Source of the DNA: Gongronella butleri
Taxonomy: Eukaryota > Mucoromycota > Mucoromycetes > Mucorales > Cunninghamellaceae
Length of the DNA: 64,000 nucleotides
Reading direction: 5' to 3'
Assembly (NCBI GenBank): GCA_025201375.1
Contig: JAIWZP010000010.1
Span: 124,001-188,000, forward strand
Shown: positions 54,228 through 64,000 of the stretch, one piece after another
Numbering within the stretch: the stretch's first letter is position 1
Layout of the letters: every line of letters begins with the position of its first letter
Position numbers and translations under genes: made by a program
The notes under the pieces: model-generated
The model's input: only the letters and a program-made list of their open reading frames with translations
What the model was told of the DNA's origin: nothing
Databases searched by the model: none

Positions 54228-55261
54228 ATGCCATTTGGCACTGCGCGTCGTCCGTCGGCGCCCGAGAGCGGCGCCTTGGCCGAGGGCGAGGCGTCGTTCA
54301 TGAACTTTTCTGTTCGTGCCAACACGGTTTCTCGGCGCGGGCGGCTACGGTATACCCTACGGCGGCAGCCTCAGGCGCCGCAAGAACAAGACACGCCTTC
54401 TGTGCCTTTGCATCACGATCCAAACTCTATTGTCACTATGACGGAGCTGCAGCAGGCCTTTGAGAATATGTCGCAAGAGCGGCTGAGCGACGCGACACGC
54501 CAAGCCGGCGAAAACAGCAAGAATGCAGCGCCATCGTCGGCGCCACCTTTTGGATCGCCACCACCGCTGCCGCCACCACATCGCCCGGCACTCGCGGTCA
54601 TCCACGATAAGGATGAGCGGCGCAGATCATTGTCCATGCCCATCATGCTCGCAGACGACGCGGATTTGGCAAATGACGCCTTTGAAGAGGACGACAATGA
54701 CCACGCATCGGACCCGTTCTTGCTTGCGAACCATTCGGACACGGCAGGGCTTGTAGATAATGCAGCGCCCATGGGGGGAAGGTCAAGCATTGACGAAAGA
54801 AAAAAGATTCAGCCTTGGCAACCAAAGAGAAACGCGTCGACAAATGCCGTGCCTCTAAGGCCCATTTACCAGCCAGCGCCCATCCACGATCTTGCGCCAA
54901 ACCCGTCCGTATCCACCCTTCGCATGGCTCGCACACTCGCAAAATCCATCAAACATACCATCCAGACCGTCGCACGCCGCGTCATCAATGTACAAAGCGC
55001 AAATGTAGCATCTTTCATCTTCCACCACCACCATCCCAAAGTAGACTCTGCATCATCCCACCCAGCATCCAACCATTCCAATCCCTCTCTGCATCCCAAT
55101 TCAACAAAACGCACCAGAAACACGCCCATCCGACTCGTCGGCAATACCTGTGCTTATTTTACCCCTGAAAATCCATTGCGCACCGCGCTCGCTAGACTCT
55201 TTGTCTGGAGGTAAAAAAAAAAAAAAAAAAAAAAAAAAAGGCGAGAATTGGGCTCATCAAA

Positions 55262-55296
<35 letters not shown>

Positions 55297-56351
55297 GGTG
55301 GATGGAGACAATTGCCATGCTTGTGCTCGTTCTCCATGGGCTCGTGCTACTTGTCGTCGGCCAGGCATCCACGCCCACAACGCAGCCACCCACCTCCTTT
55401 GGCCAGTCGTGGGACCAATACACCATTCTCGCCGTCTTTGTGTTTCACACGTAAAGCAAAGATCATCCAACAAATGGTTCAATTGACTTGTTTTTTTGCT
55501 TGTAGCTGGTTCCTGCTCGCGCGGATCGTGGTGTTTGGCTTTGTGTGGCGGCGCAAGCCGCGATTGTACGACGCTGAGCGCGACGGCCCCTTGCCATTTC
55601 TGCGACACAGCTGGAATCGCGTCGATCTGATTGCCGTCGTGTCGTATTGGGTCCACTTTGGCCTGCAGGTTGCGCAGCAGGAGATTGTCGGCGACCACCA
55701 GCGCATTCTCGTCTTCAAAATGCTGTCGGCACTCATCTTGCTGCGCCTTCTCAACATCACAAAGGGCAACACCGTCATTCTTCACAGTCTCAAAAAGGCG
55801 GGACCCCTCGTCGCCAAGGTTGCGTTCTTTGTCCTTTTTTTCGTCATCATCTTTGCGTAAGAAACACCAAAACCGAAAAATGGCGATCTCACGGGGTTTT
55901 TTTATATTTTTTGTCATTTTCGCTAGATCCATCGGTGTCCAGTCGTTCAAAGGCTCGTTTTTGCGACATTGCACGTGGCAGGGTAAGTACAAATGATTCT
56001 GGTCCACGAGAAAAGCTAGACTCACATTCTCTTCTTTTTTGACGCGCAGATCCGACAAATTCGACCAACATTGAGGAATTGGACCAGTATTGCGGCGCCT
56101 ACTTGGACGGCGACGGTACCAGAGTGCCTTTTCTCAAATCCGATGGCTCGCCGTCAGAGTGGTCCAAGGGATTCACCTGTGGCACCGGACTCCAATGCAA
56201 GGTAAAATGAAATAAAAAGAAGACGGATGAAAAGAGTGCTTCATGCTCATTTTTTGGTCTAGGAAACGACGAATCCATACGCCGGCACGCTCAGCATGGA
56301 CAACATCTTTGGCTCCATGCTGGTGGTACTAGTGATCACGGGCAGTAAGCT

Positions 56352-56384
<33 letters not shown>

Positions 56385-59300
56385 GAAAAAATAGAGACAA
56401 TCATTGACTTGACAAGGCGCAGCAAGACGAAAAACCTTCCACTCATTGCCTTTTTTTACGCGCAGATCAAACATGGACGGATCTAATGTACAGCATGATG
56501 GATGCAGAGTATTTTGTTGCATGCTTGTATTTTATCATCATTGTCATTGTCATGAACTTTTGGCTTCTCAATTTGTTTGTCGCCGTGATCAATGAGATGT
56601 TTGCAAAGGTGCGCGAGGATTCGCAACACTCAGCTTTTACAACATCCAAGTAAGGACACAAAAAAAAGCATGAAATGTGAAAATGGATGATTTTGATTGC
56701 TAAATGACCTCATAGAGCTGCAGCTTCGTTGGCTGATACTGAGGGCGACTGGTCGTTTGGACGCCAGGATGAGAAAAGGGCGGCAGCCGTGCCAGATCGG
56801 CCACAGCCTGCACTCACGCGCCTGATTCTGCGCGCACGCCCACTTTGGGTGCTGCTTGTTATTGTCGATCTCGTCTTTCTTGCCATCAAGAACAATGGCA
56901 TGACCGTCCAGCAACTCGCATTCTACGGTAAGACCACGTGTCACAAGCGCCACAACGCCGAACGGACGCTTACTCCTAGCCTTTTTCCTATTTTTTTTTT
57001 CGCCGCGCGCAGATTATATGGAATTCGTATTTTCGATGGCCTTTTTCGCAGAGATTGTGCTGAGATGGATGGCGAGCTGGTCAGATCTCGGCCAATTCTT
57101 CAGGGACAAGACAAATCGCGCAGACATGGTGATTGCATTCATGACATGCCTGATCTGGATCCCGCCCATCCGCAATAACCCCATGGCCTTTGCGTGGCTC
57201 AGCGGCTTCCAAGTCCTGCGTATCTACCGCGTCATTCTCGCCATCCCGCGTCTGCGCAACCTCTTTGTAAGCCCGCGGCGCCACTGGGCAAAACATCAAA
57301 ATCTCACTTTTTTTTTTTTTTCTAGTCACGCGTCCTCGGCACTGTGTGGGGTCTGATCAATTTGATCTTTTTCATCATCATGTGCACATTGATTGGCGCC
57401 ATCATTGTAAGTGGTCGTGAAGCAAACAACAAACAAAAAAAAGAGAAAAAATTAAGAAAATCGGCTTACGCCTCTTTCCAATAGGCATTCCAATTGCTTC
57501 AAGGCAGCCTTCAAGACGCTGAAGACGCGATGCAATTCTTCTCCATCTACAATTCCTTTATCGCGCTAAATCAGGTGGGTGTAAACAAATGAAAAACAAG
57601 AAAATGGACACTGACTCGCGTTTTTTTTTTTTTCTAAAAAAGTTGTTTTCCGGCGAAAACTGGACGACGGTGCTGTACGATGCGATGCAACACGGCGCAC
57701 CGAGCGGCAATGCCGCCATCAATGCGCTGTTTCTAAGCCTCTGGTTTGCATGCTCCAATTGTAAGTGTTGTTTTATTGAAAATGGCGTTTGCGGTGGCGC
57801 AGTGGCGCGTCTTGTCACTCTTTGCTTGTTTTGCGCCACATGGACGCGGTTTGACGCGGTTTGACGCGGTTTGACGCGGTTTTTTCTACAAGCGTTGACG
57901 CGATTTTGCTCATTTTTATTTGATAGTCGTCATGGTGAACATGATCATTGCAATTTTGATGGAGAATTTCGACACTGCCGAGGAGGAAAAGAGGCAGCGG
58001 CAGGTGGCGCAGTATGCGCAGACCAACAATCACTCTGTGCACGACAACACGGACGCGATTGTGAGCCGGTGGAACATTTACAGATACCTGACGCCGCAGC
58101 CGACGCAGGCAACGACGACTCAGATGCCGTCGAACCTCGTCTTGCCTCTGCCCAAGAGCGACATCAAGCAATTCCTCAAGGAATGGCAACCGGATGAGGA
58201 CATGCGCGCCAAATACCAGAAACAGCAGCAACAGCATCGCAAGCACATGAAAAAGCGAAGCGACTGGCGCAGGCGTCTCGGGCCCTTGTATACGATCGGC
58301 CAGTTTATGCAGGAGCACCTTGCTCGCCTCAATCACGCGTCAGTACTCGCCAATGGCGGCCAACATGGCGGCCGCATCGATTTTTCGACCGCCTACGACC
58401 GTGGCCGCGGATTCGACGGCCATCCTTCGTCTCTGTCGACGACAACGACAACTACATCTATGATGGACCCAGGCATGCCGCCCTTTGATACCAACCAGAC
58501 GACGTTTGAGCAATTAAACACGTTTTACGACATTAGCAAGAGCACGCGCAATACCGACGATCGCAGCACGTCGCTCCGATACATTCTGGCGCCGAGTTTA
58601 CGCGTGAACATTGCGGCATCCGTCGAGGAAGCGACATTGCACGATATTGAAGAAAGGCGAGCCATGCATCGCGATTTCTTGCGCGCACACCCGGCATATG
58701 ATCGTTCGCTCTTTTTGTTCCATCCCCACCATTGGCTACGATACGCGTGCCAGCGCCTCGTGCCTGCGAGTCATGGTGAACGCACCTTTGGCACACAACC
58801 TTCGTTCTGGGCGAAAACATTGTTTTTGTCGCTCATCACCCTTTGTGTGTTGACCAATGTGATCCTCACCATTTACAACAACCCCGTCATGGTTCTCGAG
58901 CACACGCGGCAGAACGATACGGCACCGCTGCGGCGCGTCGCGTACGCCGATTGGGTGTTTACCTTTGTGTTTTCCGTGGAATTCGTCATTAAGATCATCG
59001 CCGATGGCTTTTTGCTCACACCCAACGCGTATATGTTGAATGGATGGAACGTGCTTGATGTGTTTGTGCTGCTGACCCTGTATCTGTCGAATTTCGGCCA
59101 CTTTGCCGCGTCGACCGGCCTGGAACGCGTGTTTCGCGCCTTCAAGGCGTTACGTGCATTGCGCCTCATCAATCTCCTGGCGTCGGCCAAGCACATTTTC
59201 ACGGTAGTGCTCATCCAGGGCCTGCCGCTCATTCTAGACGCCGCGACGCTCGGCCTGTTTTTGATTGTACCCTTTGCTTTGTACGGCAAACAAGTGTTCA

Positions 59301-61346
59301 TGGGCTTGTTTTTCACTTGCAATGACTCGGCCGCAGCCAACAAGATGGCATGCACCTTTGAAACCATGCTGGCAACCACGACGCCCATGCCATCTTCGAC
59401 GCAAATCCTCGCGCCACGCGTGTGGACCAATCCGTACGTGTACAGCTTTGACTCGTTTTGGTCGTCGCTGCTCATTTTGTTTGAAATTGCGAGCGGTGAA
59501 GGCTGGACCGAAGTGCTCGAGACCAGCATGTCGCTCGTCGGCAAGGACCAGACCCAGCAACCATTTGCTAGCCAGTGGGCAGGCATCTTCTTCATGGTGT
59601 ACAATCTGGCAGGCTCCATTTTCGTCATTTCGCTCTTTTTGGGCATCATCCTCGAGAATTTCGCGCGCCGCAACGGCACCGCGTACCTGACGCTCGACCA
59701 GCGCCGATGGCTCGACCTGCGCAAGCTGCTCGGCAGCATCACGCCCGCAAAAAGACCCGTGCGCATCCCAACACGCGGCATTCGCAAAATATGCTTTGAT
59801 CTTGTCGAAGACAAGCGCGGCAAATTCTACAAAGTGCTCACGTGCGTCATCCTCTTCAACATTGTCCTGCTCTGCACTGATACCTACGGCTCCGACGACA
59901 TGGAATGGCTCAGGGATCTAAAAGGTAAAAATAAATGGAAAAAAGGGGGAAATCGACTCTCATTTTTCGACTTTTAGCCTTTTTTTACCTTGCGCTCGTG
60001 CTGTTTTACTGGGTCGAGATTGCCATCAAGTGGCTCGGGCTCGGTTACCACTCATTTCGCCAGAACCTCTGGAATCTATTCGATTTTGTCGCGACGCTCG
60101 GTGCCACCGTTTCCATCATCTTCACGCTAGCCATGGATCAGCACCACGTCAATGTAGAGAGTCAGAAATTGTTCCTTACGGCTCTCTGCTTCAAGCTTGT
60201 CCAGCGAAACGATGCGCTTCATCAATTGTTCACGACCATGGCGTAAGAAAACATGGGCGAAAATAGCCTTCAATGGGTTGGGATTTAACTTTTTTCTTCT
60301 TTTCACCTAGCGCATCATCGTATCAGATCATCAATGTGTACGCCGTGTGGCTGGTGGTGATGCTCACATATGCCATCATGTTCATGGAGATCTTTGGCTT
60401 GACAAAATACGGCACGGTCGCAACGACAGAGCATGTGAACTTTCGATCCTTTGCCAACACGCTTGTCTCGCTGATTCGGTACTCGAGCGGCGAGGGCTGG
60501 AACCAGGCAATGCACGATTTCACCGTCGAGGCGCCGCGCTGCGTCGCTGCCGAGAATTACCTGGACTCGGATTGCGGATCCACCGCCTGGGCCTATTTTT
60601 TGTTCCTCTCGTTCAACGTCATCTCCATGTACATCTTCACTGCCATCTTTGTCGCCGTCGTCGCGGACAATTTCTCCTATGTGTACCAGGTCGCGTCCAA
60701 TTTCACCCTTGTCAATCGCGACGAAATCAGAAAATATCCTTTTTATTTATTTATCACGACGCGCTCTGACGCGTTTGCGCGTCGTGAAAAAAAAAAATTG
60801 TTTGCAAACAGGCGCTTTGCATGCGCCGCGTGAAAAAGACACGTTTTTACGCGTTTTCGCGCATCGCGCTCTTCAAACAAAGAAAAAAAAAACACATTTT
60901 ATCCTTAACCTTTTCTCCTTTTTTTTACGTTCAAGAAATGTTGGGCTGACTTTGATTGCGAGCGCACAGGATATATCCGTGGCAAGGACTACATGTCATT
61001 TTGGCGCGTAAGCAAAGATAAAAAAAGAAAAAGTGCAACGCGACAACATGTGCCATTTGCTCACTTTATGGCTTTCGCGACAGAAATTGGATGGCATGTT
61101 CTCAATCAAAGTGTACGACGACGCATTCTCGTACAAGAACCTCGTGACGACGTGTTCCGCGCCACCACGCGTAGATCAGGATCCCAACGACCTGTACAAA
61201 GTGCGCGTTGACTTGCATCATCTCCGTCGCCGTCTCGCCGATCTCGACCCGCAAGCTATCCACAAACGCAAGCAGGATCTCAACAAGATCTACTGGGTAA
61301 TGCGCCTAAAAAAAAAAAAAAGGAGAAAAGGGAGCGCGGCAACCAC

Positions 61347-61384
<38 letters not shown>

Positions 61385-62227
61385 GAGACGGCCATGACCG
61401 AGACCGCGCGCGGCATTGCGTTCAATGACATGCTGCTGATGCTCGCGCAGCAAAAGCTCATTGTGCCTGAGAATGCCCTGTTGTAAGCCAGTTGTTCCTC
61501 CCCCCCCCTTTTTTTTTTTTTTACTCCTTGTGTGATGACCGGGACAATGGGTGGCACAGCGGCCATGTGAAACCATATGCCTGGTTCCTGACACCTTTTT
61601 CTTTCGTGCTGCAGGCTGGAAGAATTGCTGTTCAATCAAAAGAAAATGGACGCGATCAACACATTGATCAGCATCGACCGCGTCAAGGGCATGATGGAGA
61701 CCATTGCCTTGCGCAAAAAATTCCTGCAGCACCTGCGCACCAAACACCCGCGCAACACTACCCCGCCCGCTGGTAAAAAGAAAAAAAATGCCATCTTGTG
61801 CGCGTTTCATTCATTTTTTTCAATCATAGTGCACGTTCATGTCGCCGACTCCGGTGCCATGTCACCATCCATGCTGTCGCCACTCGGCCACGAGTCGCCA
61901 CTCATGTCTCCGGGCTTGTAAATACGCACAAAAGGAGAAACAGAAAAAAGTGCTGGCTTGCTTTACTGACGACTTTTTTTCGTTTATTTGCGTAGACCCG
62001 GCTACATGTCAGATGATTCGGACGTCGATCACACCAATAGCACATTCAGCCTCGTCGCAGGAAGCGAAGCGATTGCTGAATCGGCCGAAACCAGCGTGTG
62101 GAAAGGTAAAAATCAAAGAAAAGGAGAAAAAAAAAAAAGAAATAGAAAAAGCTATTGCCATGGCATGCTCACGCCTCTTTTTTTTCCACGGCCCAAAGAT
62201 CTCCTGGCTCGCGAATTGCATCAGTAG
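54228..62227 (+). CDS. CCH1: High-affinity voltage-gated-type calcium channel alpha subunit, Cch1
   Basis: Plasma-membrane Ca2+ channel of the four-domain family, partner of Mid1. I count 22 exons: 54228-55210, 55298-55450, 55506-55856, 55927-55982, 56050-56201, 56263-56344, 56466-56649, 56716-56927, 57013-57266, 57326-57406, 57485-57574, 57643-57760, 57927-59924, 59978-60242, 60311-60733, 60929-61007, 61084-61296, 61385-61482, 61615-61772, 61830-61917, 61996-62105, 62199-62227; 2058 residues (yeast 2039). Pore glutamates are seen in domain II (FSGENWT, E871), III (ASGEGWTE, E1430) and IV (SSGEGWNQ, E1721); domain I reads ITGNQTWTD with no Glu. Domain III has a clear S4 (RVFRAFKALRALRLINL); domain I S4 is poor in Arg. 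An EF-hand-like segment follows IVS6 (KFKKCWADFDCERTGYI). The 15th intron is an AT-AC U12-type intron; all others are GT-AG. Confidence 0.96.
57841..57880 (+). repeat. Four tandem 10-bp units (TTGACGCGGT) inside a CCH1 intron
   Basis: Near-perfect head-to-tail repeats in intron 12 of CCH1, upstream of a T run, a further TTGACGCG and the likely branch site GCTCATTTT. Oriented with the transcript. Confidence 0.9.
60734..60928 (+). other. U12-type AT-AC intron of CCH1
   Basis: 195 bases. The 5' splice site reads ATATCCTTTTT, matching the U12 donor consensus ATATCCTT exactly. The branch site TCCTTAAC lies at 60902-60909, an exact consensus match, and the intron ends in AC at 60927-60928, about 20 bases beyond the branch A. 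Splicing here gives NRDEIRKFKKCWADFDCE, the expected channel sequence. No GT donor in this stretch gives that join, and the frame otherwise runs on into a 5' splice-site translation and stops. Confidence 0.92.
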
Positions 62228-62723: not shown

Positions 62724-64000
62724 ATGGATTACGCCTCTTCTCGGCTAAAAAGTTTCATGTAAGGCGAAAACGACACGCATGGCGTGCCTTTTGGTCAACG
62801 TCTTATTGACCTCACTCTTTTAATGCTTATTTTTCCTATAGTCGAACACATGAAAATCTCAAACATGCAATTGCTGGTGCAGGCGCTGGAGTTGCGTCAT
62901 CCATAGTCGTTGTGCCGCTTGATGTGGTCAAGACGCGCTTACAAAATCAGGGCAAGCCACCACCAGGCGCCCTGCAGTACCATGGCACATCGGGTAAAAC
63001 AAGTGAACAGGCTCACGGGGGAGCGTCTCAAAACAATTGAGCTCATCCACCATCTAAACCTCGGATCCAGGTACATTGTCAAGGATTTGGAAGGAAGAAG
63101 GCATCCGCGGTCTGTATCGCGGCCTTGGCCCTACGATTTTTGGATACCTGCCTACGTGGGCCATCTATTTCACCACATACGACTATTGCAAGGCCGAATG
63201 GGCTAACTATCTAACAGGTAAACAACTCAAAAACGCCCAAAACGCCGAAATCTCATCCTTTTTCTCCTTTTTCTCCCCTCTGAAAAGGCACATCCGGCCA
63301 CGAGTGGCTGACACACATCTTGTCTGCCATGACGGCAGGCGCAGCATCGACGACACTGACGAATCCATTGTGGGTGATCAAGACGCGGTTCATGGTAGGC
63401 CGGATTTTGCGCCAATTTTTGGACAACCAGAGGCTGACAGTGCTTTTTTTCCATTGTTTTAGACGCAGAGCGACTCAACGCCGTATCGCTACAACAATAC
63501 CATTCATGCATTCCGCACAATTGCCAAGGAGGAGGGGATTCGCGGCTTTTACAAGGGGCTCGGCACATCGCTGATCGGTGTCAGCCACGTGGCCGTGCAA
63601 TTCCCACTGTACGAGAAGCTCAAGGCCTGGTTCGGTAAACATGCAGCAAACGCGGCTGACAAGCGCGTGCAAAAAAAAAAAAAAAAAAAACGAGGAAAGT
63701 GCCCGATCTGACGCGCCTTTTCGCGTCTTTTTCGCGTTTTACAGGGCAAGGCGACGTGACGTCCGGGAACATTGGCATTCTATTGGCATCTTCTCTGTCA
63801 AAGATGGCGGCAAGCACAGCGACATATCCCCACGAGGTAAGGACATGGACAAGAGAGGGGAAAAAAGGAAAAAGAGGGGTCTTAAAAGTTTTATTTTTGG
63901 CATCTTGATGGTGTGATGGATGACGCATGGAGCTTATCTTTTTTCTTGATTTTTTTTTTCCTCTAGGTGATTCGTACGCGTCTGCAGAACCAGACGGTCA
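62724..64000 (+). CDS. Mitochondrial carrier family protein, NAD+ carrier (Yia6/Ndt)-like, 3' truncated by window
   Basis: Inner-membrane solute carrier (SLC25). Visible exons: 62724-62758, 62842-62993, 63071-63217, 63288-63394, 63463-63634, 63745-63836 and 63967 onward; about 247 residues before the window ends. Three carrier signatures appear: PLDVVKTRLQ (repeat 1), NPLWVIKTRFM (repeat 2) and YPHEVIRTRLQ (repeat 3), each P-x-[DE/WV]-x-x-[KR]-x-[KR]. Other blocks are GIRGLYRGLGPTIFGYLPTW, AIYFTTYD, VAVQFPLYEKLK and LASSLSKMAASTATYPHE. Tryptophan in NPLWV and the SKM.AST.TYPHE block place it in the NAD+/pyrimidine-nucleotide/folate branch, closest to Yia6/Ndt; folate/FAD or pyrimidine carriers are the alternatives. 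The first exon is only 35 bases. Confidence 0.85.

Follow-up and report, generated by a model that had tools for sequence, protein, structure and literature searches.

An AT-AC intron with U12-type motifs in the Cch1 calcium-channel gene of the fungus Gongronella butleri

The calcium-channel gene Cch1 of Gongronella butleri almost certainly contains a U12-dependent AT-AC intron, in an organism that keeps the minor spliceosome together with a few U12 introns, and the same site is probably shared by many Mucorales and some Glomeromycota. The intron lies at positions 60734–60928 of the window, the 64,000-nucleotide stretch of genomic DNA analyzed here. By its motifs it belongs to the minor type; we infer its actual splicing, the presence of U12 and the occurrence of the intron in the DNA of relatives.

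Results

A single AT-AC intron in Cch1

The Cch1 model was built manually, with splice sites picked by hand (Table 1). Twenty of its 21 introns are of the GT-AG type, the AT-AC intron being the sole exception, and the 20 hand-picked GT-AG donors read GTAA in 19 cases and GTGG in one. For comparison, we examined the best 120 of 1,115 homologues passing the E-value limit. Within this set, the closest match to residues 1400–1960 was a Hesseltinella vesiculosa protein (80% identity), followed by proteins from Chlamydoabsidia, Halteromyces and further Mucorales. An Ion_trans domain (PF00520) was found in the domain IV segment, and this domain, together with likeness to fungal Cch1 and to Cav and NALCN structures, places the product among the Cch1/NALCN/Cav channels. 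A sequence-only reading of the window had named the gene fungal CCH1, an identification borne out by homologues that are Cch1/Ion_trans proteins.

Table 1 Features of the Cch1 locus in window coordinates
Feature	Position	Strand	Remarks
Cch1 calcium-channel gene	54228..62227	+	22 exons, 2,058 aa; manual model, start codon and small exons provisional
U12-type AT-AC intron	60734..60928	+	195 nt, phase 2
U12-type 5' splice site ATATCCTT, then TTT	60734..60741	+	matches RTATCCTT
11-bp hairpin within the intron	60754..60787	+	in the strongly folded middle
U12-type branch-site motif TCCTTAAC	60902..60909	+	putative branch A at 60908, 20 nt before intron end
Intron 3' end TTTTTTTTAC	60919..60928	+	terminal AC
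False GT-AG 'intron', GTCAAT (Val codon) to TTCAAG	60711..60935	+	in frame, removes conserved VNRDEIRKFK

The same reading had described a U12-type donor, a branch site about 20 bases from the end, a terminal AC and an exact in-frame join, and our coordinates and motifs confirm all four. The intron begins with ATATCCTTTTT, ends with CTCCTTTTTTTTAC and reads ATATCCTTTTTATT...TATCCTTAACCTTTTCTCCTTTTTTTTAC overall. Donor and branch motif, separated by 160 nt, both match the U12 consensus exactly (RTATCCTT and TCCTTRAC), and the phase 2 join yields ...NRDEIRK/FKKCWADFD..., so that motifs, exact ends and join together support assignment to the U12-type AT-AC class. Splicing at these sites would give the cDNA junction AATCAGAAA/GTTCAAG, that is, GTCAATCGCGACGAAATCAGAAA joined to GTTCAAG. 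If retained, the intron introduces an in-frame stop (after ...RRFACAA), while another, non-coding frame remains open. In the window, ATATCCTTT occurs once (0.28 expected) and TCCTTRAC seven times (2.72 expected); from both rates, about 0.002 chance donor/branch pairs are expected per window, for motifs up to 300 nt apart on the same strand and before an in-frame join is demanded.

AT-AC ends alone do not settle which spliceosome acts, as the available text on SCN4A intron 21 illustrates (PMC2831892), and the major spliceosome might process the Cch1 intron in the manner of the U2-type AT-AC introns of sodium-channel genes. That class is described as carrying G at position +5 (PMC2831892), whereas the Cch1 intron has C, and an exact U12 consensus at both donor and branch site likewise speaks against it; we give this explanation next to no weight. 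Alternatively, the major spliceosome could remove an in-frame GT-AG intron of 225 nt that overlaps the AT-AC intron (Table 1), giving a predicted cDNA junction CACCCTT/AAATGTTGG. Its donor, GTCAAT, resembles none of the 20 GT-AG donors in the hand-picked model, the perfect U12 donor and branch motifs would become an accident, and the block that it deletes is kept in 104 of the best 120 of 1,115 homologues (95 ungapped and nine with a one-residue gap). We consider this GT-AG intron very improbable and return to it with the proteins of relatives.

The AT-AC intron is predicted to fold at -52.2 kcal/mol (z = -3.5), a stability equaled by none of 200 shuffles, and the centroid structure leaves both donor and branch motif outside helices. 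Between the donor and the U11 5' end of the same genome, an 8-bp duplex is predicted, as a single value without control.

Some additional features of the locus were recorded. None of the other 20 Cch1 introns is as long as the AT-AC one, and the second longest (166 nt) holds a perfect four-copy tandem repeat, GACGCGGTTT, at 57843–57882. GACGCG is also present in the AT-AC intron and in one of the U12-like introns described below (L021). Runs of A or T of 27–38 nt, one of them imperfect, lie in Cch1 introns at 55213–55239, 55266–55293, 56354–56391 and 61351–61382. The neighboring gene, at about 62725–64000 and continuing past the window end, appears to encode a mitochondrial carrier (PF00153, E 7e-28, with two exons joined by eye).

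Probable traces of the intron in deposited Cch1 proteins

Among the same best 120 of 1,115 homologues, four proteins showed an insertion at the junction, ten a deletion and two ended before passing it, next to the 104 in which the block is kept. These categories were defined after viewing the alignment; groups were assigned by names and recall, with six assignments checked, and five unnamed proteins were counted among the 82 others. Disruption affected 16 of 38 proteins from Mucorales, Umbelopsis and Glomeromycota versus 0 of 82 others (Fisher p = 7e-10, for rows that are related by descent and not independent). By group, it was seen in 12 of 27 Mucorales, 4 of 10 Glomeromycota and 0 of 1 Umbelopsis. 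The disrupted proteins are P0003, P0004, P0006, P0015, P0017, P0018, P0021, P0023, P0026, P0028, P0029, P0030, P0034, P0037, P0047 and P0063. Two Cch1-like proteins bear the species name Dichotomocladium elegans (P0010 and P0029), and of these P0029 is the one disturbed at the junction.

The disruptions include two recurrent forms. Five proteins (P0003, P0004, P0017, P0021 and P0028) have the junction sequence EIRKYPF or EMRKYPF, which is the translation of AAATATCCTTT, and P0030 ends in DQKISFF, the same stretch one frame over. In five others, from Absidia (P0006), Apophysomyces (P0015), Phycomyces (P0018) and Ambispora (P0034 and P0037), exactly the ten residues equivalent to VNRDEIRKFK are missing, the block that use of the false GT-AG pair 60711/60935 would delete from the present protein. 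The gap is what splicing at the GT-AG pair predicts, but that splicing leaves KYPF in the five other relatives unexplained. Both forms are, in our reading, traces of an AT-AC intron left in deposited proteins by gene finders restricted to GT-AG.

A pseudogene or an assembly error at the junction, with the stretch left unspliced, would be a further explanation, and the stretch is indeed rich in homopolymers. Against it, Cch1 is open over 2,058 aa and 22 exons, its residues 1400–1960 keep the high identity to a relative noted above and models built on many other assemblies show a disturbance at this same junction, so we deem such an artifact exceedingly unlikely.

Returning to the U12-type intron, six Mucorales have models that seem to translate the donor, and these fungi very probably carry the intron at the same codon. 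The remaining lineages with disruptions, Archaeosporales and Diversisporales among them, probably have it too. Judged from relatives' protein models, the same intron is thus probably present in many Mucorales and at least some Glomeromycota, and it is probably old. The 22 of 38 intact models may reflect either correct annotation or intron loss. Four Mucorales proteins (P0002, P0005, P0007 and P0025) read KYK in place of the KFK of the present gene, which we take as an ordinary substitution.

Minor-spliceosome components in the genome

We searched the genome (33.0 Mb, 110 contigs) for components of the minor spliceosome. U6atac (53.7 bits, Rfam threshold 33) and U11 (65.8 bits, threshold 39) were both recovered over threshold, and a U4atac candidate scored 48 bits, below its threshold of 53 (E = 5.4e-6). 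In 14 prokaryote control genomes searched at E up to 10, matches appeared in 11 (U6atac), 3 (U11) and 11 (U4atac), none over threshold; the G. butleri genome itself yielded 14 additional below-threshold U6atac matches. The 5' part of the U4atac candidate and the U6atac of the same genome form a near-continuous duplex of -38.4 kcal/mol, compared with a mean of -26.4 kcal/mol for 500 shuffled versions of the U4atac part, of which one equaled the observed value. This strong pairing supports the U4atac candidate. In the G. butleri U6atac, AGAGAUAUUUGGCAAUCCCC stands in place of the AGAGAAGGUUAGCACUCCCC of the Rfam consensus, a change across which pairing with the U4atac candidate is preserved.

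At the protein level, a gene of several exons on contig C15 matched PF18036 with 73.3 bits after three pieces were roughly joined; we take PF18036 to be the U11/U12 25K protein family. PDCD7 (PF16021) gave no match in the genome, a negative that carries no information because the controls were likewise without a match.

U12 (Rfam RF00007) gave no match at E 0.001 or at E 10, either search scoring 42 of 2,992 first-look candidates. With up to three mismatches allowed, an 18-mer taken from the conserved 5' part of U12 matched 36 times versus 63 in the control; ten matches were scanned with Rfam, none being U12, and the other 26 lacked the GTAAGGA core as judged by eye. The pattern GTAAGGA...RATTTTTG matched 13 times (control 10), and all 13 were scanned without a U12 hit. 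A pattern predicted from the changed U6atac matched once (control 2), at a locus, L077, that we rejected, as it showed no Sm-like site on reading and no Rfam U12 match. Altogether the U12 Rfam scans took in 24 candidate loci, ten from the 18-mer, 13 from the GTAAGGA pattern and L077. Divergence of U12 is the likeliest reason for its escape, because the Lichtheimia genome paper describes U12 in basal fungi with the third stem atrophied and the last one shortened (PMC4133162), and the available text of the Apophysomyces genome paper reports an Rfam search likewise without U12 (PMC5604411). The U12 partner of the changed U6atac stretch may itself have changed, possibly explaining why it was missed.

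Retention of the minor spliceosome, as the sequence-only reading had proposed, is therefore well supported by the recovered components. U11, U6atac and the 25K-like PF18036 protein were found, U4atac is represented by a below-threshold candidate that pairs with U6atac and U12 was not located.

Other U12-like introns in the genome

The combined pattern RTATCCTT...TCCTTRAC with short spacing occurred 13 times in the genome versus twice in a reversed control. With 160 nt between its motifs, the Cch1 intron lies outside both spacing ranges scanned. We submitted the joins of ten of the 13 loci to Pfam, one acceptor and phase per locus being hand-picked among several open choices and most joins being trimmed to a methionine. 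Seven of the ten matched a Pfam family, and in six the domain crosses the junction: VPS11 (L013, branch motif 13 nt from the intron end), LSM12 (L017, 19 nt), NF-YB (L018, 21 nt), Brr6-like (L020, 31 nt), WAC/Acf1 with GT-AG ends (L022, 31 nt) and the importin N-terminal domain (L014, 37 nt). In three of these six (L014, L020 and L022), the branch motif is 31–37 nt from the end, over 10 nt farther out than in the Cch1 intron (20 nt). At L012, a CDC24 OB match begins just after the junction; at L016, L021 and L023, the join is open without a family match. Such in-frame U12-like introns suggest that the organism keeps a small set of U12 introns.

The importin-like gene of L014 lies on the reverse strand of C27, where its AT-AC U12-like intron (phase 0) is around 463886–463970; there, TCCTTAAC is 37 nt from the terminal AC, with a second, TTTCCTTGC-like motif nearer to it. 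L011, L015 and L019 lack protein support, L011 and L015 having been joined but left out of Pfam and L019 giving no join. A long-spacing version of the pattern matched five times (control 0); none of these loci gave a convincing join.

Discussion

Minor introns are recognized by U11 at the donor and by U12 at the branch site; U6atac then takes the place of U11 at the donor, and exon joining follows. For the Cch1 intron, U11 and then U6atac would recognize the donor ATATCCTT, U12 would recognize the branch site TCCTTAAC and phase 2 exon joining would restore the segment after domain IV S6 (EIRK/FKKCWADFD). We suggest that the strong mid-intron fold could bring donor and branch site closer together. 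A broader account, to which we give somewhat less than an even chance, holds that the intron dates from the Cch1 of the Mucoromycota/Glomeromycota common ancestor and was kept in many lineages, even though reports for Rhizopus and Phycomyces give low numbers of minor introns; that a sizeable part of the public Cch1 models from these fungi (16 of the 38 compared here) consequently carries a stereotyped error just after IVS6; and that the folded middle shortens the path from donor to branch site and may make splicing of the channel adjustable via the minor spliceosome, as reported for Cacna1c in rat heart cells.

The disturbed junctions suggest that many public models of fungal Cch1 have a conserved segment truncated or lengthened by gene finders that accept only GT-AG. 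KYPF or the ten-residue gap at the junction might serve as a simple marker with which to trace the intron, and hence the minor spliceosome, in early-diverging fungi.

Rhizopus and Phycomyces belong to the same order as the present fungus. Rhizopus oryzae and Phycomyces blakesleeanus have U12-type introns (PMC2846911), about 4 and about 20, respectively (PMC10639083), of the same class as the Cch1 intron and, in the reports available, with both AT-AC and GT-AG subtypes; here, six Pfam-supported U12-like introns were found besides that of Cch1. The available text of PMC2846911 does not contain 'calcium channel'. Rhizophagus irregularis (Glomeromycota), with 205 predicted minor introns and all four minor snRNAs reported (PMC10639083), shares fungal minor introns but has far more of them than the present genome. 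For Lichtheimia corymbifera, excerpts of the genome paper describe minor snRNAs in a Mucorales genome, with a divergent second half of U6atac, and report U12 but not U4atac (PMC4133162), whereas here a U4atac candidate was found and U12 was not. For Apophysomyces, the corresponding text lists some minor snRNAs but neither U4atac nor U12 (PMC5604411), in contrast to our U4atac candidate. U12 introns are also listed for the LSM12 genes of fly and human (PMC2831892), a likeness to L017 at the level of the gene.

Our literature searches found no paper joining Cch1 with U12 introns in fungi, none under U12-type introns in Mucorales and none with both 'minor intron' and 'Cch1' among the matches listed; published supplementary tables may list the intron. 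Minor introns in Mucorales and Glomeromycota and minor snRNAs in Lichtheimia were already known; the Cch1 instance may be new, unless it stands in a published table.

Animal voltage-gated channels, members of the same gene superfamily as Cch1, have U12 introns that include AT-AC ones, and minor introns are described as characteristic of the SCN and CACNA1 genes (PMC6865273, PMC2831892). The link to these genes drawn by the sequence-only reading holds at the level of the gene family; the reported positions differ. Animal channel minor introns are reported as N-terminal (PMC3634016), and those of rat Cacna1c are introns 2 and 13 of 44 (PMC8767276); by these published intron numbers, the Cch1 intron, which follows domain IV S6 and whose junction aligns with LDE/FKRIWAEYD of Cav1.2 just after IVS6, is at a different position. 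In rat heart cells, a Cacna1c minor intron was retained and Cav1.2 reduced when U6atac was lowered, according to the text available (PMC8767276); regulation of the fungal channel through minor splicing is conceivable. G. butleri Cch1 offers a clean, testable minor intron in a fungal channel gene whose animal relatives depend on minor splicing at other reported positions.
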